The notes under the pieces were generated by a model. It saw nothing but the letters and a program-made list of their open reading frames with translations. It ran no database searches and was not told the DNA's origin. Shown here piece after piece: positions 17,115-44,955 of a stretch of DNA of 64,000 bases (the first letter of the stretch is position 1; each line of letters starts with the position of its first letter). Origin of the DNA: Leisingera sp. JC1 (GTDB lineage: Bacteria > Pseudomonadota > Alphaproteobacteria > Rhodobacterales > Rhodobacteraceae); assembly GCF_001679925.1 (NCBI RefSeq), contig NZ_LYUZ01000092.1:811-64810 (forward strand). The letters run 5' to 3'. The position numbers and the translations under genes were made by a program.

Positions 17115-17147
17115 TATAAAAGACGCCCCGGCACAGGGCCGGGACGT
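17115..17147 (-). terminator. intrinsic terminator ending the demethylation gene run
   Basis: On the minus strand CCCGGC and GCCGGG (17143-17138 and 17132-17127) form the core stem, extended by three outer pairs past one mismatch. The stem is followed by TCTTTTATA. It lies 33 bp after the stop of the DMGDH-like gene and marks the 3' end of the seven-gene run. Confidence 0.75.
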
Positions 17148-17179
17148 GATACGGGCAGGTAAATGCACTGGAGAGGTGC

Positions 17180-19630
17180 TTAGGCCTTCACCCGCTCCGA
17201 TTTCGGATCGTACATCGGCTTCAGCGAAGCCTCGGCCTGCACCTTCACGCCGCAGACGTCGATCTCGTAGGTCGAACCCAGCACATCCGCCGCGCTTTCG
17301 TCCTCGCAAGGCACGTAGCCCATGCCGATGGCGGCACCCAGAGTGTGGCCGTAGTTGCCGGAACTGAGATAGCCCACATATTTGCCGTCGCGGATGATCG
17401 GCTCGTTGTGGAACAAGAGCGGCTCGGGATCGGTCAGCTTGAACTGAACCATGCGGTTCTTGGGGCCGCTCTCCTTGCGCTCCAGCACCGCGGCCTTGCC
17501 GATGAAGTCGTCCTTGTTGGTGGCAACCGCAAAGCCGAGGCCCGCGTCGATCACATTGTCCTCGCAAGTGATGTCGTGGCCGAAGTGGCGGAACCCCTTC
17601 TCGATCCGGCAGCTGTCCATCATGTGCATACCGCAGAGTTTGAGGCCCATGTCCTGGCCTGCTTCCCACAGGGTTTCGAATGCGTGGCCGGCCATGTCGG
17701 CGCCGACATAGATTTCCCAGCCCAGTTCGCCAACATAGGTCACGCGATGGACGCGGGCGAGGCCCATGCCCAGCTCGATCTCCTGCGCGGTGCCGAAGGG
17801 GTTCACCTCGTTTGAAAAGTCGTTCGGCGAGACCTTCTGCAGCAGCTCGCGGGAGTTCGGGCCCATCACGGCCAGCACGCCCTCGCCCGCGGTCACATCG
17901 GTGATCACCACGCGGTGGTCGCCCACATGGCGCATCATCCAGGTCTGGTCGGCCAAACGGGTTACCGCCGGGGTCACCACAAGATAGGCGGTCTCGCTCA
18001 AACGGGTGACCGTCACGTCGGCCTCGATGCCGCCACGGGAGTTCAGGAACTGGGTGTAGACGATCTTGCCTGCGGGTGCCGAGACATTGGCGCCGCAGAT
18101 GTAGTTCAGGAACTTTTCCGCATCCGGGCCTTCGACGCGGATCTTGCCGAAGGAGGACATGTCGTACATGCCGACGTTTTCGCGGACGGCCTTGTGTTCA
18201 GCTGCCGAGTTCTCAAACCAGTTCTGGCGCTTCCAGCTGTACTGGTACTCACGCTCCTGGCCTTCATTGGCAAACCAGTTGGCGCGCTCCCAGCCGCCGA
18301 TTTCGCCGAACACGGCGCCCTGTTCCTTGAGGTGGTGGTGGAACGGGGTACGGCGCACGCCGCGGGCAGTGGCCTTTTGGCGGTAGGGGAAGTGGTCGGC
18401 GTAGAGAAGACCCAGAGTCTCTTTGGAGCGCTCGAACAGGTAATGCTTGTTGCCCTGGAACGGGTGCATGCGGGAGATGTCCACATCACCAAGGTCAAAC
18501 GGTTTCTGGCCGTCCTCCATCCACTGCGCCAGCGCCATGCCGGCGCCGCCTGCAGACTGGATGCCGATCGAATTGAAGCCGGCGGCGACCCAAAAGTTAT
18601 CCATCTCTGGCGCCAGACCGAGATGGTAGGCGTCGTCCGGGGTAAAGGACTCAGGGCCATTGAAGAAGGTGTGGATACCCGCCTCCGCCAGCATCGGCAT
18701 ACGGTTGCAGGCGGCCTCCAGGATCGGCTCAAAGTGGTCGAAGTCCTCGGGCAGCTGGTCAAATTCGAAGCTGTCGGGGATACCGTTCATTGCCCAGGGC
18801 TTGGCGTTGGGTTCAAAGGCACCCAGCAGGATTTTACCTGCGTCTTCCTTGTAGTAGGCGCATTCATCCGGCACCCGCAGCACCGGCATCTGGGCCAGGC
18901 CTTCGATGCCTTCGGTCACAATGTAGAAGTGCTCGCAGGCGTGCAGAGGAACGTTGACGCCTGCCATGCGGCCGACCTCGTGCCCCCACATGCCGGCACA
19001 GTTCACCACCATATCCGCCTCGATGTGGCCCTGGGACTGGCCATCATCGCTGGCCCAGTCAACACCGGTGACGCGGCGGCCGTTTTTGGAGATGCCGGTG
19101 ACCTTGATGCGCTCTTTGACCAACGCACCGCGCTGGCGGGCGCCCTTGGCCAGGGCCAGCGCGATGTTGGCCGGATCCGCCTGTCCGTCGGTCGGCAGCC
19201 AGACACCGCCGGTCACGCCGTCCAGATTGATGTGCTCGTAGCGCTCCTTGACCTCCTTGGGCGACAACTCCTCCACCGGCACGCCAAAGGCGCGGGCCAT
19301 TGCGGCGTTGCGATAGAGTTCTTCAAGCCGCTCATTTGTCAGCGCTGCGGACACTGAGCCGACCTGGCGCAAGCCAGTGGCGACACCGGTTTCTTCCTCA
19401 AGCCCCAGGTAAAGCTCTGCTGAATAACGCGCGAGCTTAGTCATGTTGGAGGACGCGCGCAGCTGGCCGATCAGGCCCGCGGCGTGCCAGGTGGTACCGG
19501 AGGTCAGCTGTTTGCGCTCCAGCAGAACCACATCCTTCCAGCCGAGCTTGGTCAGGTGGTAGGCTACCGAACAGCCGATTACGCCGCCGCCAATAATCAC
19601 CACGCGGGCCTTGTTGGGAAGATCGCTCAT
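17180..19630 (-). CDS. FAD-dependent dimethylglycine/sarcosine dehydrogenase-like protein with GcvT domain (paralogue 1)
   Basis: 816-residue fusion enzyme. Residues about 8-370 are a DAO-type FAD oxidoreductase (VVIIGGGVIGCSVAYHL). It has the SGTTWHAAGL motif whose His carries covalent FAD in DMGDH and sarcosine dehydrogenase. An FAO_M linker follows, then GcvT and GcvT_C folate domains (about residues 430-810; MGPNSRELLQ, YVGELGWEIYV, RIEKGFRHFGHDI). Such enzymes remove an N-methyl group and pass the one-carbon unit to tetrahydrofolate. AGGAG lies 7 bp before the ATG at 19630. Last gene before a terminator. The second paralogue (815 residues) is in the same run. Exact substrate unknown. Confidence 0.9.
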   Translation of the reverse strand: MSDLPNKARVVIIGGGVIGCSVAYHLTKLGWKDVVLLERKQLTSGTTWHAAGLIGQLRASSNMTKLARYSAELYLGLEEETGVATGLRQVGSVSAALTNERLEELYRNAAMARAFGVPVEELSPKEVKERYEHINLDGVTGGVWLPTDGQADPANIALALAKGARQRGALVKERIKVTGISKNGRRVTGVDWASDDGQSQGHIEADMVVNCAGMWGHEVGRMAGVNVPLHACEHFYIVTEGIEGLAQMPVLRVPDECAYYKEDAGKILLGAFEPNAKPWAMNGIPDSFEFDQLPEDFDHFEPILEAACNRMPMLAEAGIHTFFNGPESFTPDDAYHLGLAPEMDNFWVAAGFNSIGIQSAGGAGMALAQWMEDGQKPFDLGDVDISRMHPFQGNKHYLFERSKETLGLLYADHFPYRQKATARGVRRTPFHHHLKEQGAVFGEIGGWERANWFANEGQEREYQYSWKRQNWFENSAAEHKAVRENVGMYDMSSFGKIRVEGPDAEKFLNYICGANVSAPAGKIVYTQFLNSRGGIEADVTVTRLSETAYLVVTPAVTRLADQTWMMRHVGDHRVVITDVTAGEGVLAVMGPNSRELLQKVSPNDFSNEVNPFGTAQEIELGMGLARVHRVTYVGELGWEIYVGADMAGHAFETLWEAGQDMGLKLCGMHMMDSCRIEKGFRHFGHDITCEDNVIDAGLGFAVATNKDDFIGKAAVLERKESGPKNRMVQFKLTDPEPLLFHNEPIIRDGKYVGYLSSGNYGHTLGAAIGMGYVPCEDESAADVLGSTYEIDVCGVKVQAEASLKPMYDPKSERVKA

Positions 19631-19651
19631 ATCATCGCTCCTGAATGAGGG

Positions 19652-19685
19652 TTTGCGCCTGATTATCACGAACAGGCGGCGCAAA
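19652..19685. promoter_or_regulatory. inverted repeat upstream of DMGDH-like gene 1
   Basis: TTTGCGCC (19652-19659) and GGCGCAAA (19678-19685) are perfect inverted arms around 18 bp, with a further partly matching TG/CA extension. It lies in the 83-bp gap between the GlxA/AraC regulator and the dehydrogenase. It could be an activator site for that regulator or an mRNA hairpin; this is not resolved by sequence. Confidence 0.4.
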
Positions 19686-19713
19686 ATGCATCAAAAACGT
19701 CAGGCTGCCGGGG

Positions 19714-20727
19714 CTATTCTCCGGCCTTGAGGATTTTTTCTGAACCATCCTCACCCAGCCGGCGGCGTTTGCGCAGGGCAAAAGGGGTGATGCCGAAGAA
19801 GCTTTTGTAGAGGCTGGAGAATCCGTTGGGAAAGCCGCAGGCAAGACCGATCTCGCGGACGCTCATCGTGGTATTGAGTAGGAGATTATTGGCCTTGGAG
19901 AGCCGCATTTCCCGGTAAAACCCATTGGGAGTAGTTCCTAGGAAGGTCTTGAACTTGCGTTCCAGCGAACGGGTGGAAATGCCCAGTTCATCGACGATGT
20001 CGCTGATCGGCACCGGTTCCTCGATGTTGTCCTGCATGATGCGGATGCAATGGTCCAGGTCACTGTCACCGGTGATGGTCGGCTTGGCCCCGGCAAAGGG
20101 CTGCAGCGAGGAGAAATCGCGCACCTGCTCATGCAGCATGATGTTCGCAACGGTCATCTGCGCCGCAGCGGAAGTGAGCCGCCCGACAAGCGCCAGAATG
20201 ATGTCGACAGTGGAACCCATGCCTGCACAGGTCACCACCATCCCGTCCTCGCTGGCCAGCGCGTGACTGGAGTCGTTCAGCCCCATCCGCTCTCGCAGCA
20301 AGGCAGAGTTTTCCCAATGGGTCGTCAGCCGCCCGGCCGCCCCACCCTGGTCGCGGATATAGCGCGCCGCGGCCTCGGCTAACAGGTAGACCTTGATATC
20401 GCGGCAAGTGTAGCTGGAGATTACCCGGCCCAGGCTGAGACCCGGATGGTCCGGGTCCGAGTTGCCAAGAAAGAAGGCGAAATCCGCATCCGGCTTGGCC
20501 GCGAAGGGTTCAGTATCCACGCTGAGGCCCGCCCGGCAGCCCACCCGGCCGCCCTGCAGAGAGCGGACGGTCCATTTGAATGGCGGCTGGGCCAGCACAC
20601 GGTTGGCGATCCGCAGCACCTCAAGGATTGCGGACATTTCGATCAGCACAAAACCTTCGGTGACGATGATGTCGATGTGCCAGACCCGGGCCGGGTCTGC
20701 CGCTTTGAGTTTTTCCGGTGCCGCCAT
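19714..20727 (-). CDS. GlxA-family AraC-type regulator (DJ-1/PfpI domain plus AraC HTH)
   Basis: 337-residue activator. The N-terminal DJ-1/PfpI-like domain (about residues 17-200) includes the block VVTCAGMGSTVDIILALVGR where the family keeps its elbow residue. The C-terminal AraC domain has two helix-turn-helix units (DIVDELGISTRSLERKFKTFLGTTPNGFYREMRLSKA, and VREIGLACGFPNGFSSLYKSFFGITPFALRKRRR). GGGGAGGGG precedes the ATG. The same architecture is found in GbdR, CdhR and ArgR-type activators of glycine betaine, carnitine and arginine catabolism in Pseudomonas, which fits its place between methyltransferase and DMGDH-like genes. Inducer not known. Confidence 0.9.
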   Translation of the reverse strand: MAAPEKLKAADPARVWHIDIIVTEGFVLIEMSAILEVLRIANRVLAQPPFKWTVRSLQGGRVGCRAGLSVDTEPFAAKPDADFAFFLGNSDPDHPGLSLGRVISSYTCRDIKVYLLAEAAARYIRDQGGAAGRLTTHWENSALLRERMGLNDSSHALASEDGMVVTCAGMGSTVDIILALVGRLTSAAAQMTVANIMLHEQVRDFSSLQPFAGAKPTITGDSDLDHCIRIMQDNIEEPVPISDIVDELGISTRSLERKFKTFLGTTPNGFYREMRLSKANNLLLNTTMSVREIGLACGFPNGFSSLYKSFFGITPFALRKRRRLGEDGSEKILKAGE

Positions 20728-20745
20728 GCTGATCCCCTCCCCTGG

Positions 20746-21642
20746 TCAGATGATCCGATGCCCGGCCGCGCGCAAGCAGCGGGCCAGTTCGGCAATATGG
20801 TCCGGGCCGACTTCACAGCAGCCCCCGACGATAGCAGCGCCTTGGGCAACCCAGCCCATAGCGAATTCCGCGTAGGCTCTGGGCCCCAGATCCTGGCGCT
20901 GCTCCAGCGCGTCCACGGTCGGCGCATCTTTCAGGAAGCCCTCTGAAATCCGGGTAAAGCCGTTGGCATAGGCCCCGTATGGTTTGCCGAAACTCTTCAC
21001 GATTTCCAGGCCGGCACCGATAACCTCCGGACGCGAGCAATTGAGCAGAACCGCCTCCGGCTGGAATTCCTCAACCAGCGGCGCGAGGTCTGCCAGCGGC
21101 TCGCCGGAACGCAGCAGCGTTCCGTCTTCATCGGAAACCGAGACTGACAGCCACACCGGTTTGACTGTCCCGGCGCAGCCGAGCAAGGCGCCCTTGGCCT
21201 GTTCGACAGAGGACACAGTTTCGATCAGGAACAGATCAGCCTGCGGCTCCAGCAGCTGAACAAGCTCTGCGTAGACCGGTGCGGCCTCCTGGTGCGGCGG
21301 GCAGATATCCGGGCGGTAAGAGGCATTCAGCGGACCCAGCGCAGCGGCAACGCGGCCCGATCCGTGGGCGTCCCGTGCAGCGGTTGCCTGTGCAGCGGCC
21401 TTGGCCAGCAGTTCTTCAAAATGCTCCTCGATCCCGGCACGGGCCAAACGGTCGCGCAGCACGGCATAGGTGTTCATGGTGGCGATTGTGGCCCCGGCAG
21501 CAAAGTAGTCCGCGTGAATACCGCCGACCACATCCGGCTTTTCGATCATCACGGAGGTTGACCACAGCGGCGTCGCCCGGTCGCCCGACCTTTTGACCAC
21601 CTCCTGCCCGATCGAGCCGTCAAGAAGGATGATATCTGTCAT
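20746..21642 (-). CDS. homocysteine S-methyltransferase family protein
   Basis: 298-residue zinc-dependent TIM-barrel methyltransferase of the MmuM/BHMT family, which moves a methyl group from a sulfonium or ammonium donor to homocysteine. It starts ILLDGSIGQEVVKR, and the zinc ligands are present: the Cys of LLNCSRPE and the Cys pair in VGGCCEVGPDHIAEL. It is shorter than canonical BHMT, so the methyl donor may be S-methylmethionine or another small donor and not betaine. AGGAGG precedes the ATG. It overlaps the upstream MDR gene by ATGA and ends 18 bp before the regulator, so it is tightly operonic. Confidence 0.88.
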   Translation of the reverse strand: MTDIILLDGSIGQEVVKRSGDRATPLWSTSVMIEKPDVVGGIHADYFAAGATIATMNTYAVLRDRLARAGIEEHFEELLAKAAAQATAARDAHGSGRVAAALGPLNASYRPDICPPHQEAAPVYAELVQLLEPQADLFLIETVSSVEQAKGALLGCAGTVKPVWLSVSVSDEDGTLLRSGEPLADLAPLVEEFQPEAVLLNCSRPEVIGAGLEIVKSFGKPYGAYANGFTRISEGFLKDAPTVDALEQRQDLGPRAYAEFAMGWVAQGAAIVGGCCEVGPDHIAELARCLRAAGHRII

Positions 21643-22709
21643 GGGACCTCCTGCGGTGGAATAAGGACCAGTTTGCCCGGAAACGCCTTGCTCATGAAAT
21701 CGGCTTGCGCCCGAGCGATGTCCTGCAGGGGATAGGTTGCCGAGACCAAGGGACGGATTGCGCCGGAATTGATCAGCTCCACCAGTTCAGCAAAGACCGT
21801 ACGGGGGGAGAAGGTGCAACCGTGGATGGTGATGTCGCGCAGGTAAATCTCGCGCAGATCCGCGGTAACGATCGGGCCGGCAATGGCGCCGGAGACCGCA
21901 TAATGCCCGCCGGGCCGCAGCGCCTGTATCAGGGCAGCCCATGCCGGGCCGCCGACCACGTCGATGACGGCATCGAAACTGCCTGGTTCAGGGGATTCCT
22001 CGCGTCCGATGATCCTGCCCGCGCCCATCGCGGTCACCGCCTCCGCCTTGGCGGGTGATGTCTGGCCGGTCACTTGCGCACCGAGATGGGCCGCCAGCTG
22101 CACCGCAGCCAGCCCGACTCCACCGGAAGCGCCGGTCACCAGAACCCGCTGGCCACCGGAGACACCGGCACGGTGCAGCAGGTTCCAGGCGGTTCCATAG
22201 GCACAGGGCATCGCCGCGATCTCGGTATCGGACAAGGGAGAGGCGCTGACATCGAACAGCTCTGCCGCCTGCATGAGGCAGTATTGCGCGAAAGCGCCAT
22301 CAAGTTCAGACCCCAGAGCAACGAAGGCCACCGGGTTGTCCGGCTGCAGCCGGGGAATATTGATCTGGCTTGTGACCCGCTGTCCGACGCGGATGGCGCC
22401 AACATCCGGGCCGGTCTGAACCACCAGGCCGCACAGGTCGCCGCCCTGGATACGGGGAAAAATCAGGGCGCCGCCCCAGCCGCCGGACTCGACCTCTGCG
22501 TCATCACCCACTGCATCCGTGGCCCCTGTCACATCTGACGAATACCAGCCGATTCGGGTGTTAATGTCAGTGTTGTTGACGCCGGCCGCCAGAACCTTGA
22601 CCAGCACCTGCCCCGGTCCAGAGACCGGAACAGGAATATCTTCACGCCATTCGAGCGCATCCGGCCCGCCATGCCGGGTCAAACAGACGCCTTTCATCAT
22701 CCGGGCCAT
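21639..22709 (-). CDS. MDR-family zinc-type alcohol dehydrogenase / quinone oxidoreductase
   Basis: 356-residue NAD(P)H-dependent reductase. The GroES-like domain carries GVNNTDINTRIGWYSS and GGDLCGLVVQTGPDVGAIRVGQRV. The Rossmann domain has VLVTGASGGVGLAAVQLAAHLGAQV, with a nucleotide-binding GxxGGVG turn. Catalytic zinc ligands are not evident, so it resembles the zinc-independent quinone-reductase branch. AGGAGG lies 8 bp before the start. It overlaps the methyltransferase gene by four bases and begins 45 bp after the DMGDH-like gene 2 stop, so it probably belongs to the same transcript. Its place in the pathway is unclear; it may reduce a side-chain carbonyl or enoyl product. Confidence 0.85.
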   Translation of the reverse strand: MARMMKGVCLTRHGGPDALEWREDIPVPVSGPGQVLVKVLAAGVNNTDINTRIGWYSSDVTGATDAVGDDAEVESGGWGGALIFPRIQGGDLCGLVVQTGPDVGAIRVGQRVTSQINIPRLQPDNPVAFVALGSELDGAFAQYCLMQAAELFDVSASPLSDTEIAAMPCAYGTAWNLLHRAGVSGGQRVLVTGASGGVGLAAVQLAAHLGAQVTGQTSPAKAEAVTAMGAGRIIGREESPEPGSFDAVIDVVGGPAWAALIQALRPGGHYAVSGAIAGPIVTADLREIYLRDITIHGCTFSPRTVFAELVELINSGAIRPLVSATYPLQDIARAQADFMSKAFPGKLVLIPPQEVP

Positions 22710-22754
22710 CGCTGAAGCCTCCTGAATTAAGCGTGACGGGCCGACCCTAGCACA

Positions 22755-25202
22755 TCAGGCGCGCAGGCGCTCGTTGGCCGGATCCCACAGCGGTTCGTCT
22801 TTCTGAACCACCGCGCGGCACTTCTCACCGTAGATCTCCACGTCAAGCTCGGTGCCCGGAACGGCCAGCTCAGGACGCACCATGCCCAGTGCGATGGAGG
22901 CGTTCACACGGTAGCCCCAATCACCGGAGGTGGTTTCGCCCACGATCTCTCCATCCTTCCAAATGCAGGACATGTAAGGCGCATCGGCGTCGCCAGCCTC
23001 TACGATCAGGGTCACAAAGGACTTTTTCACGCCTTGCTGCTTTTCGTTCTGAATCGCAGCTTTGCCTGGGAAGTCCTGCGGCTTATCCAGCTTGACGAAA
23101 CGCTCCAGCCCGCCTTCGAGCAGCGAGTAGTCGGTGCTGAGATCGCCCTTCCAGGTGCGGTAGCCCTTCTCGATACGCAGGGAATTCAGCGCATACATGC
23201 CAAAGGGCTTGGCACCGCCTGCGAGCAAGGCATCATAGATTGCCGGCTGGTGCTCATTGGCGCAATGCACCTCCCAGCCCAGCTCGCCGGCAAAGGACAC
23301 CCGCGCCAGGAAGGCGGGTTTGCCCGCGACGGTGGCTTCCTGATGGGTCAGCCAGCCAAGCGACAGGTCGGCGTCGGAGATGCCTGCAAACAGCTCACGC
23401 GATTTCGGACCGGTGACGATCATGGTCGCGAATTCGGTGGTGCGGTCGGTCAGGGAGAGGCCTGCGGGCAGCGCCTTCTTCAGGATCTCGAAGTCGTGCC
23501 ATTGGGCCGAGCCTGCGGTGATCATGGTGAAGTGGTCTTCGCCGTGACGGACACAGGACATCTCGGTCAGGATACGGCCGCGGTCGTCCGAGAAGTAGAC
23601 TAGGTTCATCCGGCCCACTTTCGGCAGGCCGCCGGTTACCAGGCCGCGCAGGAATTCCGCGGCGCCTTCGCCTTCGAGATTGAAGCGGGAGAAACCCGGC
23701 AGGTCCAGCACGCCGACGCCGTCGCGGACCGCTTCGCATTCTTCCTGGATGCGCTGCTGCCACGGGCCGGAGCGGCCCCAGGTGTGGGTGGCCTCCTCTG
23801 AGGTGTCGTCGCCGTCCTTGGCGAACCAGTTGGCGCGTTCCCAACCGTTATAGGCGCCCATCACGCCGCCCAGTTCCTTGATCTTGGCGTGGACCTGGCT
23901 GACCTTCTTGTCGCGCGCGGCCGGCCACTCGTGGTGCGGGAAGTGCATGGCATATTCGTTGCCGTAAACTTCCATGCCTTTCTGGTTGCAGTAGTCCTGG
24001 TCGGTGTAGTCGGTGTAACGGCGCGGATCGACAGCCCACATATCCCACTCAGTATGGCCATCGACGATCCATTCGGCCAGCACCTTGCCGGCGCCGCCGC
24101 CCTGGGCAATGCCGAAGGTGAAGCTGTGGGCCTCAAATGCGTTTTTCACACCCGGCATCGGGCCGATCATCGGCAGGCCATCGGGCGCATAGGGGATCGG
24201 GCCATTGATCACGCTGGAAACACCGGAGGTCGCCATCAGCGGCACCCGCTCCATCGCATCGGTGACAATATCCTCGATCCGGTCCAGGTCTTCCTGCCAC
24301 AGCTGGAACGAGAAGTCCTCGGGCATCGGATCGTCTTCGGTCAGCCAGTGGCCTTTGCAGTTCGGCTCGTAGGGGCCGAGGTTGTAGCCGTGCTTTTCCT
24401 GACGCAGGTAGTAGGACACGTCCACGTCGCGGATCAGGGGCAGCTTGCCGCCGTGCTCCTTGGACCAGGCTTCGACCTCGGGGATCTGTTCGGTCAGCAG
24501 GTACTGGTGCTCCATCACCATGGCAGGCACGGTCCGGCCACCGTAGGGCTTGAACATCTCGCCCACGCGCTGCGCATAGTAACCGGCGGCGTTCACCACA
24601 TAGTCGCAGTCGATGTCGCCCTTTTCTGTCTGCACGGTCCAGGTGCCGTCTTCGTGCTGGGTCACACCGGTCGCCGGGGTGAAGCGCAGGATCTTTGCGC
24701 CCATGTCGCGCGCACCCTTTGCCAGAGCCTGCGTCAGCTGCGCCGGGTCGATATCACCATCGGTCGGGTCATAAAGAACCCCTGCCAGGTCATGGGTTTC
24801 CAGGAACGGATAGTGTTCCTTGGTTTCTTCCGGGGTCCACATTTCCATCGGGATGCCCTGGTAGCGGCCCATGGACATAGCGCGTTCGAATTCCTGCATC
24901 CGCTCTTTTGTGTGTGCCAGACGGATCGATCCCGAAACATGGTAGTTCATCGGGTAGTCGACCTCTTCAGCCAAGCCTGAATACAGCTCGGTCGAGTAGC
25001 GCTGCATGTTCATGATCGCCCAGGAGGTCGAAAAAGTCGGCACGTTGCCGGCCGCATGCCAGGTCGAACCGGCAGTCAGCTCGTTCTTCTCCAGCAGCAC
25101 ACAATCGGTCCAGCCTTTCTTGGCCAGATGATAAAGCGACGAGCAGCCGACGACGCCGCCGCCGATGATGACCACACGGGCCTTGGTTGGAAAATCAGAC
25201 AT
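22755..25202 (-). CDS. FAD-dependent dimethylglycine/sarcosine dehydrogenase-like protein with GcvT domain (paralogue 2)
   Basis: 815-residue relative of the protein at 17180-19630, with the same order: DAO-type FAD domain (ARVVIIGGGVVGCSSLYHLAKKGW), the covalent-flavin motif LTAGSTWHAAGN, FAO_M, then GcvT and GcvT_C domains (VTGPKSRELFAG, SFAGELGWEVHC, RIEKGYRTWKGDL). After the flavin His it reads GNVPTFSTSWAIMNMQRYS, unlike paralogue 1, a difference expected to reshape the substrate side. GGGAGCG precedes the ATG. It starts 15 bp after the GFA gene stop. The likely reaction is oxidative N-demethylation with transfer to tetrahydrofolate; the substrate is inferred only as an N-methylated amino acid. 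Confidence 0.9.
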   Translation of the reverse strand: MSDFPTKARVVIIGGGVVGCSSLYHLAKKGWTDCVLLEKNELTAGSTWHAAGNVPTFSTSWAIMNMQRYSTELYSGLAEEVDYPMNYHVSGSIRLAHTKERMQEFERAMSMGRYQGIPMEMWTPEETKEHYPFLETHDLAGVLYDPTDGDIDPAQLTQALAKGARDMGAKILRFTPATGVTQHEDGTWTVQTEKGDIDCDYVVNAAGYYAQRVGEMFKPYGGRTVPAMVMEHQYLLTEQIPEVEAWSKEHGGKLPLIRDVDVSYYLRQEKHGYNLGPYEPNCKGHWLTEDDPMPEDFSFQLWQEDLDRIEDIVTDAMERVPLMATSGVSSVINGPIPYAPDGLPMIGPMPGVKNAFEAHSFTFGIAQGGGAGKVLAEWIVDGHTEWDMWAVDPRRYTDYTDQDYCNQKGMEVYGNEYAMHFPHHEWPAARDKKVSQVHAKIKELGGVMGAYNGWERANWFAKDGDDTSEEATHTWGRSGPWQQRIQEECEAVRDGVGVLDLPGFSRFNLEGEGAAEFLRGLVTGGLPKVGRMNLVYFSDDRGRILTEMSCVRHGEDHFTMITAGSAQWHDFEILKKALPAGLSLTDRTTEFATMIVTGPKSRELFAGISDADLSLGWLTHQEATVAGKPAFLARVSFAGELGWEVHCANEHQPAIYDALLAGGAKPFGMYALNSLRIEKGYRTWKGDLSTDYSLLEGGLERFVKLDKPQDFPGKAAIQNEKQQGVKKSFVTLIVEAGDADAPYMSCIWKDGEIVGETTSGDWGYRVNASIALGMVRPELAVPGTELDVEIYGEKCRAVVQKDEPLWDPANERLRA

Positions 25203-25217
25203 GTTCGCTCCCTAGTC

Positions 25218-25589
25218 TCAGTCTTCTTGCGGCACGCCGTCCGCAATCCGGTAGTAGTCGCCCTTGGAGGCGGTAAAGATGTGCTTTTCGACGCTGAGAC
25301 CGGTGTTCCCGTCGACAGCGCCCAAAGCAAAACTGGTGGTGTCTTCCCCTGCCCCTTTCCAGAACAGGAAGGAGCCGCAGCGGGGGCAACTGCCGCGCTT
25401 GGCCTGCGGCGTTGCCTCGAACCAGCTCACCGGTCCGGTGATCGTGAGGTCTGCGTCGCGCACCTGCGCAGAGGCCCAGATGCCGCCCGACTGCTTGCGG
25501 CACTGGCTGCAATGACACATCGAGGCATTCTGCGGTTTGGCCGCAGTTTCAAAACGGATGTCGCCGCAGAGACAGGAACCCTTGATCAT
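25218..25589 (-). CDS. GFA-family (CENP-V/GFA) zinc protein
   Basis: 123-residue cytoplasmic zinc protein of the family named after glutathione-dependent formaldehyde-activating enzyme. The ligand pattern is intact: GSCLCGDI, MCHCSQCRKQSG, and SCPRCGSFLFW. AGGAGAAAG lies 7 bp before the ATG. It sits 10 bp after the regulator and 15 bp before a dehydrogenase that would release formaldehyde when tetrahydrofolate is short, so a formaldehyde-capture role is attractive here. Many GFA-fold proteins do not act on formaldehyde, so the function is inference from context. Confidence 0.87.
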   Translation of the reverse strand: MIKGSCLCGDIRFETAAKPQNASMCHCSQCRKQSGGIWASAQVRDADLTITGPVSWFEATPQAKRGSCPRCGSFLFWKGAGEDTTSFALGAVDGNTGLSVEKHIFTASKGDYYRIADGVPQED

Positions 25590-25599
25590 CGTCTTTCTC

Positions 25600-26169
25600 C
25601 TAGTAGACCGGCGGCGCGATCACCCAGACAGCCACCGCGGGCTCGTCGTAAGGATTCGACCACTGATACGGTTCATGCTTGATCCGGAAGCTGTCGCCGG
25701 GACCGACGGTAAAGCTACGGCCGCCGATCATCAGGTCCAGTTTGCCTGAGATCATGTAGCCGACTTCCTGCGTCGGCCGGTTTGCCGGGGTCTGCATCTT
25801 TGAGCGCGGGCGGAAAGTGGAATGCACCATCTCAAAATCGTCGGTCAGGTCCGGCGACAGCAATTCCTCGATGAGCCCCTCCTCGCCGGAGCCCATCGGG
25901 CGGCGGGAGCCGGCACGCACGATGTAGCCATGCTCTTCTGCCGGGGCGCCGGAATGGGCAAACAACATCGACATCGGCACGCCCAGCGCCTCGGCAATCT
26001 GCCGCAGGTCGGAGATCGAGGGCTCGGACATGTCGCGCTCCACCTGGCTCAGCCAGCCGACCGAGCGGTTCAGCATCGCGGCAATATCCGTCAGGGTCAG
26101 CCCGCGGGCCTTGCGCAAGGCCCGGATATCCGCCCCCAGAGTCGCCGTTGCCACCGTCTGATCGTTCAC
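25600..26169 (-). CDS. XRE-family regulator with cupin domain, first gene of the demethylation run
   Basis: 189-residue regulator with an N-terminal XRE helix-turn-helix (residues about 14-68: RALRKARGLTLTDIAAMLNRSVGWLSQVERDMSEPSISDLRQIAEALGV) and a C-terminal cupin_2 domain (about 115-185: TQEVGYMISGKLDLMIGG, VGPGDSFRIKHEPYQW). It starts with GTG at 26169 behind GGGGAGAGAG. It opens a tight set with the GFA and DMGDH-like genes and has two inverted repeats in its own upstream region, so autoregulation together with the catabolic genes is likely. It shares architecture with, but is not close to, the regulator at 951-1517. Ligand not known. Confidence 0.9.
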   Translation of the reverse strand: MNDQTVATATLGADIRALRKARGLTLTDIAAMLNRSVGWLSQVERDMSEPSISDLRQIAEALGVPMSMLFAHSGAPAEEHGYIVRAGSRRPMGSGEEGLIEELLSPDLTDDFEMVHSTFRPRSKMQTPANRPTQEVGYMISGKLDLMIGGRSFTVGPGDSFRIKHEPYQWSNPYDEPAVAVWVIAPPVY

Positions 26170-26185
26170 CGGCTCTCTCCCCGCT

Positions 26186-26254
26186 TCGTGAAAAAATACT
26201 CTCGTTTTTCACGATGGACCGAGCTCGTGAAATTTCCAAGTCATTTTTCACGAG
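26186..26254. promoter_or_regulatory. two inverted-repeat operators upstream of the XRE/cupin regulator
   Basis: Repeat 1 is TCGTGAAAAA (26186-26195) with TTTTTCACGA (26205-26214), spacer 9 bp. Repeat 2 is CTCGTGAAA (26224-26232) with TTTCACGAG (26246-26254), spacer 13 bp. All four half sites share CGTGAAA. They lie 17-85 bp upstream of the regulator start, where they would overlap its promoter. The repeats are seen directly; binding by the cupin regulator is inferred. Confidence 0.75.
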
Positions 26255-26270
26255 ACGGAAGGATGCTATG

Positions 26271-26298
26271 AAAAAACCCAGCGCCATCAGGCGCCGGG
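26271..26298 (-). terminator. intrinsic terminator downstream of msrC
   Basis: On the minus strand CCCGGCGCC pairs with GGCGCTGGG around a TGAT loop with one mismatch, followed by six T. It closes the msrC transcript about 70 bp after its stop and insulates the demethylation operon whose operators begin at 26254. Confidence 0.8.
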
Positions 26299-26368
26299 CG
26301 GATTTTTCTGGTCGATTGCCCCTTGGAAGAAGGCTGCAAGGCCGGGGGCAAAGCCCCGAATATGCGAA

Positions 26369-44818: not shown

Positions 44819-44849
44819 AAAAAAAATGGCCGGACATAGAGCCCGGCCA
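44819..44849 (-). terminator. intrinsic terminator of the response-regulator gene
   Basis: TGGCCGG (44849-44843) pairs with CCGGCCA (44833-44827) on the minus strand and is followed by eight T. It lies about 107 bp after the stop of the OmpR-type regulator and upstream of xthA. Confidence 0.85.
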
Positions 44850-44955
44850 AGTCCAACAGGGAGGTGCATATCATGACCCGGATATGCGCGGGTTTTGGGC
44901 CACTCCAAAGATGAACCTAAAATCCCTCTTTGATTTGGCTCAACGCCGAGCAGCA

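Follow-up and report, generated by a model that had tools for sequence, protein, structure and literature searches.

Among the nitrogen-containing osmolytes of the sea, glycine betaine is abundant. Its first demethylation step in this group of marine bacteria was reported only in 2025 (PMC12478193). In Ruegeria pomeroyi the cobalamin-dependent system MtgBCD turns glycine betaine into dimethylglycine and the first methyl goes to folate, with the roles of mtgC and mtgD shown by mutants and with MtgE (SPO1884) as a separate homocysteine module; the proteins predicted to carry out the dimethylglycine and sarcosine steps are more abundant on glycine betaine, choline and carnitine, and the available text names no loci for them (PMC12478193). 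In the same organism SPO3400 has been named dimethylglycine dehydrogenase and SPO3396 sarcosine dehydrogenase (PMC4744692), and tables give SPO3398 as homocysteine S-methyltransferase and SPO3402 as LysE (PMC4809877); names for SPO3397, SPO3399 and SPO3401 were not found in the open literature, supplements apart. Here we describe a run of seven minus-strand genes, lettered A to G from its head, in a 64,000-nt stretch of Leisingera sp. JC1 (contig NZ_LYUZ01000092.1; the full stretch is called the window below). Judging from its sequence and relatives, the unit quite probably encodes the later steps of glycine betaine breakdown, from dimethylglycine to sarcosine to glycine after MtgBCD, under the control of A. 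Its main enzymes are already named in R. pomeroyi; what is new is the proposed control circuit, together with the leader peptide of an mtgB-like gene.

The gene run is real and well conserved. Open reading frames confirm seven genes in a row with gaps of 10, 15, 45, -4, 18 and 83 bp, as the preliminary description had them, and Pfam backs all seven family names (Table 1). The gap before G, the widest within the run, counts from the ATG at 19630; the longest G frame begins at a TTG at 19684. As relatives we took 80 named loci, the best among the 438 that a search with protein C gave (labelled L###; contigs of the window's own genome, an assembly of 5.19 Mb, are labelled C##), the nearest by this protein being Leisingera at 98-99% identity. 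The synteny comparison that had been proposed finds the A-to-G order mostly kept among these 80. Presence, counted on the 71 loci with enough flank and at a gene-specific identity threshold between 40 and 60% (above 45% for E), is 70 for A, 68 for G, 67 for F, 61 for B, 52 for E and 44 for D; median identity to the window is 86% for C, 85% for A and G, and 51-71% for B, D, E and F. On these presence counts and identities, A, C, F and G form the core of the unit, and B, D and E look like accessory genes that were gained and lost among relatives. No G is seen in five loci (L033, L037, L043, L045 and L089).

We hypothesize that MtgB, MtgC and MtgD would take the first methyl of glycine betaine and leave dimethylglycine, a step assigned to this genome through an mtgB-like gene on contig C81. 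C would then oxidise dimethylglycine to sarcosine and G would oxidise sarcosine to glycine, the methyl carbon in both cases passing to tetrahydrofolate (THF) as methylene-THF. As conservation suggests, A would bind twin dyads that straddle the promoter and hold the unit repressed as long as no compound of the pathway occupies its cupin domain, and in this genus would also repress the mtgB-like gene via a third copy of the dyad core. F would probably act at a conserved block before G, while B, D and E would be accessory genes, E among them a homocysteine methyltransferase.

The steps proposed for C and G draw on their domains, on the published names of their counterparts and on their neighbours. 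Both proteins carry DAO, FAO_M, GCV_T and GCV_T_C in one chain, and a WHAAG motif, whose histidine we take to be the residue of the covalent FAD link, is kept in 81/81 copies of C and 74/74 copies of G. These domains uphold the earlier reading of two DMGDH-type (dimethylglycine dehydrogenase-type) enzymes that should give methylene-THF. The earlier view of the run as a demethylation unit that has operators and a terminator of its own stands as well. C matches the human DMGDH chain 5l46 at an E value of 6e-171. Several facts weigh against assigning the two steps to these genes. The genome holds 12 other full-length paralogues, three of which match human DMGDH as well as C does (543, 551 and 570 bits, compared with 530 for C), as well as further sarcosine-oxidase-like matches, and dgcA and soxBDAG have been assigned to the dimethylglycine and sarcosine steps in Rhodobacteraceae (PMC7574528). 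Because there are 14 full-length enzymes of the kind, three others of them as near to human DMGDH, similarity alone does not settle the substrate; a ranking by human DMGDH similarity, meant to single out C, was dropped for the same reason. It might be, then, that C and G use another, perhaps undescribed, N-methylated compound and that the true enzymes are other DMGDH-like paralogues or SoxBDAG, a reading that would also suit the want of a set role for B, D and E in the glycine betaine path. We consider this unlikely in view of the published names of the R. pomeroyi counterparts (PMC4744692) and of the tight co-occurrence and linkage with MtgB-like genes, found in 10/13 outside loci and 9/61 family genomes as detailed below. 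The preliminary suggestion of an undescribed substrate finds no support: the order of SPO3396 to SPO3402 matches that of the run, two of those genes being already named for dimethylglycine and sarcosine, and in relatives C or G has a methyltransferase gene of the MtgB-like kind as its neighbour. Homarine had been the first idea for such a substrate and was set aside; no paper titled on such a cluster was found. The most likely substrates are dimethylglycine and sarcosine, and the chemistry of the unit is probably already known in outline.

The genome as a whole has a large demethylation repertoire: besides the 14 full-length DMGDH-like enzymes there are 11 matches to the MTTB family, and both kinds occur on contigs C2, C35, C89 and C106.

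Linkage to mtgB-like genes was examined at two distances. Protein C was searched in 192 genomes of the class, 27 of which matched with E <=1e-200, and 19 stretches were taken. Thirteen of these loci lie outside the family (L162-L174, with a C orthologue of about 49% identity or more): an MttB-family (MtgB-like) gene stands beside C or G in 10 of them and G beside C in nine, L166 and L171 being without the methyltransferase gene and L169 being a 6.5-kb contig. Pfam MTTB was recovered in all four given of the 10 MtgB-like genes, and also in a distant one in L175. As a control, albeit a small one, four of 13 lower-identity matches (L175-L178) include none with G and one with the distant MTTB gene, at 22%. 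Within the family, 61 genomes were compared, one per genus, at E values up to 1e-220 for mtgB-like and up to 1e-250 for C and G. The mtgB-like gene occurs in 28 of these genomes, whereas 35 have C and 36 have G, with mtgB-like and C together in 27 and C and G together in 34 (Fisher 3e-9 and 1e-13, respectively, uncorrected for shared descent); one genome has the mtgB-like gene without C. On the same strand and within 10 kb, the mtgB-like gene lies near C in nine genomes and C near G in 30.

Other observations count against this link. C stands without an mtgB-like orthologue in 8/61 family genomes. Against the glycine betaine methyltransferase 9yce and against 2qne the MtgB-like protein of L167 reaches 182 bits, and against a chain of a trimethylamine methyltransferase 183; because these scores are alike, the search of structure chains does not tell its substrate. 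Moreover, we infer that the C81 gene is mtgB-like from its likeness to the L167 gene, of which it is the nearest relative in this genome (63% identical, an open frame without stops), and not from SPO2108 or SPO2134, the genes named in print. The C81 protein does fall short of the pyrrolysine-type trimethylamine model (370 vs 525), and its gene is unlinked to the unit.

The preliminary description also made methyl transfer by E towards methionine a step of the pathway, such that the operon would split substrate methyls between folate and methionine. E does overlap D by 4 bp within the unit and does keep its PF02574 domain and cysteine motifs, with GGCC in 57/57 copies and NCS in 50/57. We nevertheless think such splitting very unlikely. 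E scores 59.9 bits against a cut-off of 338 for the betaine-homocysteine methyltransferase model NF005718, and 131.3 against 215 for the MmuM-type model NF007020; the other of the two PF02574 proteins of the genome, on contig C68, passes the betaine-homocysteine model at 605.7 bits, which is what one would expect of MtgE; 52 of the 71 loci were found to have E and 19 were not, nor were any of the 13 outside loci; and the first methyl in R. pomeroyi goes via MtgBCD to folate (PMC12478193). No evidence in this analysis ties E to the glycine betaine path, and E may be a homocysteine methyltransferase with another donor.

Control of the unit appears to centre on its head, where the two inverted repeats noted earlier prove to be perfect dyads, TCGTGAAA-N13-TTTCACGA. 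With all 16 arm bases exact, these two sites are the only ones in the assembly, the next best having 2 mismatches. Before A, at least one dyad with <=3/16 mismatches occurs in 74/76 scanned loci (L077 and L086 are without; 4 of the 80 loci lay outside the scan). A pair at exactly 39 bp with <=4/24 core mismatches is present in 66 of 77 rows (the window plus 76 named loci), the best value in 200 shuffles being 6; many of the 11 rows without it are Aliiroseovarius or Halocynthiibacter types. When the 66 rows are aligned, CTTGGAA is conserved between the arms of the distal dyad, and so is CATCGT, which follows after 17 bp and borders the proximal one, the conserved promoter columns being CTTGGAA and CATCGTGAAAA. 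This pair is likely a promoter that bound A would cover, so that in 66/77 rows conserved dyads lie over the regulator's own predicted promoter, the arrangement looked for in an XRE-cupin autorepressor. Two results point the other way: a consensus promoter scan found none at the head of the unit, and A is present in 3/13 outside-family loci, none with a clear twin pair. Neither the operator nor A as a regulator was found in the open literature, supplements apart, and the available part of a paper on trimethylamine control (PMC13390433) mentions no XRE or cupin protein.

A wide regulon defined by the dyad was tried and rejected: <=3/16 mismatches gave 10 sites in the genome and 12 in the reversed control, because of which we treat wide dyad scans as noise. 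The 12-base core at <=1 mismatch gave 11 sites versus one in the control, four of the 11 being exact. These four copies of GTGAAA-N13-TTTCAC, where 0.07-0.3 are expected by chance, comprise the two at the unit, one lying 203 bp upstream of the mtgB-like start codon, and a GC-rich one on C98. The dyad before the mtgB-like gene is retained with <=2/12 mismatches in 21/21 genomes of the genus (8 exact, 12 with one mismatch, 1 with two), its arms 94% like those of the window's genome vs 74% for the 480-bp leader. One XRE-cupin repressor may therefore join the unit and the mtgB-like gene, and in this genus a shared operator may replace physical linkage; in 9 of 28 genomes of other genera the mtgB-like gene lies near C. 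It is important to note, as points to the contrary, that this dyad is missing in 28/28 loci of other genera at <=2 mismatches, and that other 25-bp pieces of the leader reach 0.84-0.90 vs 0.89 for the dyad, because of which conservation alone does not single it out. Both points, along with the fact that this dyad stands alone and differs in its outer letters, would fit an unrelated regulator, not A, acting before the mtgB-like gene with no shared control. That is a genuine possibility to which we nonetheless give the smaller share of belief, given that the window's genome has the 12-base core without a mismatch there and holds only four such sites.

Upstream of the mtgB-like gene there is also a short open reading frame (C81:160901-160987, plus strand), mostly about 28-30 codons long and with the core RTIGAxRGRAARGRP. 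It is present in 21/21 genomes of the genus and 15/28 loci of other genera (36/49 in 16 genera; L179, L204-L207, L209-L217, L219, L222 and L232-L251), with 34-77 bases separating its stop from the start of the mtgB-like gene as aligned. Codon variation is 0.41 at third positions vs 0.06 and 0.04 at the first two, and because third positions vary most the frame looks translated. It is missing in 8/9 genomes with the mtgB-like gene near C. The same peptide is encoded on the minus strand near C in L033 and L037 (Zongyanglinia), loci without D, E, F or G beside C, L033 ending shortly after C. The mtgB-like leader has no Rfam match at cut-off (one chance match lies far below it), and the peptide was not found in the open literature, supplements apart.

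Whether the seven genes form one operon, as previously claimed, is answered in part. A single A-to-G transcript is likely, and is made uncertain by the gap between F and G, which carries a conserved element and may hold a promoter. This block, a feature absent from the preliminary list, has its core in 40/74 rows with F and in 0/12 loci with G but without F, with ~0.0008 expected per 110 bp; F is a natural candidate that could possibly bind it. Against the GbdR model NF052371, F reaches 123.9 bits where the cut-off is 480. An inverted repeat before G, TTTGCGCC-N18-GGCGCAAA, was dropped for the wider block, being in 7/81 rows only. The distribution of the block and the width of the gap would both agree with two transcription units, one in which the twin operators govern A to F and another in which F drives G from a separate promoter. 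We lean away from this arrangement without dismissing it: the strict core is lacking in 34/74 rows with F, although 50/74 hold a 14-base form with <=3 mismatches; no terminator pattern occurs on the minus strand in the gap; and a second promoter can coexist with read-through. The terminator said to close the run corresponds to a terminator-like hairpin after G, which recurs with its stem letters changed in 8/9 named loci with dnaN downstream, the ninth (L081) having another hairpin; such patterns are barely above chance in the region (11 found vs 7.6 +/- 3.1 expected).

The accessory portion of the unit varies further among relatives. Gaps with extra genes were examined in 13 named loci and L160, with Pfam run on three of these genes. 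A LysE-type exporter gene lies between A and B in L021, L022, L030, L041 (a Ruegeria copy) and L059, and between B and C in L063 and L160; a small cupin gene lies between C and D in L028 and L040. B-type proteins have 8 matches in the window's own genome, B included; B contains the GFA domain with no NCBIfam match, and a formaldehyde-activating function does not follow from the domain. Elsewhere in the genome another DMGDH-like gene (C1:399005-401404, L006) adjoins an MDR reductase 45% identical to D, and the DMGDH-MDR pairing therefore occurs at least twice. The window contains no tRNA, and no Rfam family is found at the seven-gene unit. The sole RNA family to reach its cut-off in the window, far from the unit, is the SorX small RNA (RF02784, 88.6 bits, 44822-44894, minus strand), which overlaps the start of a listed open reading frame.

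Table 1. Features of the seven-gene unit and its flanks (window positions).
Feature	Position	Strand	Basis
A: XRE helix-turn-helix + cupin regulator, likely autorepressor of the unit (predicted)	25600-26169	-	Pfam HTH_31/HTH_3, Cupin_2 above cut-off
B: GFA/CENP-V domain protein, 123 aa, accessory	25218-25589	-	Pfam GFA 74.3 bits, cut-off 24.3
C: DMGDH-type FAD/folate enzyme, likely dimethylglycine dehydrogenase (predicted), SPO3400 counterpart	22755-25202	-	DAO, FAO_M, GCV_T, GCV_T_C
D: MDR-type reductase, accessory	21639-22709	-	Pfam ADH_N, ADH_zinc_N; best solved relative 4j6f, E 1e-70
E: homocysteine S-methyltransferase family protein, accessory, SPO3398 counterpart	20746-21642	-	PF02574 199 bits
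F: GlxA/AraC-type regulator, possibly acting on G	19714-20727	-	HTH_18, HTH_AraC
G: DMGDH-type FAD/folate enzyme, likely sarcosine dehydrogenase (predicted), SPO3396 counterpart	17180-19630	-	DAO, FAO_M, GCV_T, GCV_T_C
Distal operator dyad (putative)	26225-26253	.	TCGTGAAA-N13-TTTCACGA
Proximal operator dyad (putative), 39 bp from distal	26186-26214	.	TCGTGAAA-N13-TTTCACGA
Putative promoter TTGGAA (26239-26234), 17 bp, CATCGT (26216-26211), overlapping both dyads	26211-26239	-	Conserved columns in 66-row alignment
Conserved block TGACGTTTTTGATGCATTTT..., possible (putative) F binding site and second promoter	19657-19702	-	Core in 40/74 rows with F
Intrinsic terminator-like hairpin after G, 10 pairs + T-rich tail	17123-17147	-	Pattern match, recurrence in relatives
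Terminator-like hairpin between upstream GAF gene and dyads	26276-26299	-	Pattern match only

With candidate operator, regulator and a testable mtgB-like link, the cluster would supply the two steps that follow the first demethylation, and control of the whole path becomes open to test. The fullest form of the proposal is that one XRE-cupin repressor senses a glycine betaine intermediate, that in this genus the shared dyad ties the operon to the unlinked mtgB-like gene, and that the translated leader acts as a further layer; we offer this tentatively, and with rather more doubt than conviction. If true, repressor and leader would make up a circuit of two layers, so far undescribed, that serves a major osmolyte of the ocean.

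Set beside known systems, the locus shows partial likeness to each. F shares the GlxA/AraC architecture of GbdR-type control in Pseudomonas, but lies below the GbdR cut-off, and the best conserved sites here precede the XRE-cupin gene instead. Like the Arthrobacter dimethylglycine oxidase and mitochondrial DMGDH, C and G appear to be FAD and folate enzymes with the covalent-FAD histidine, G carrying the Asp of the Arthrobacter oxidase and C the Glu of the human enzyme; identity to these enzymes is, however, only 28-38%. R. pomeroyi SPO3396, 3398, 3400 and 3402 have the same order and spacing as G, E, C and the LysE gene of Ruegeria copies, a likeness judged by gene names and order, and the window differs in having no LysE gene between A and B. 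As for the MtgBCD system, the available text of its description contains the word 'operator' 0 times and 'regulator' once, and notes later demethylases near mtgBCD in other marine bacteria (PMC12478193). In this genome the mtgB-like gene differs in lying on another contig; similarly to that report, C and G orthologues adjoin mtgB-like genes in relatives, and the path needs both of the later steps that they would provide.

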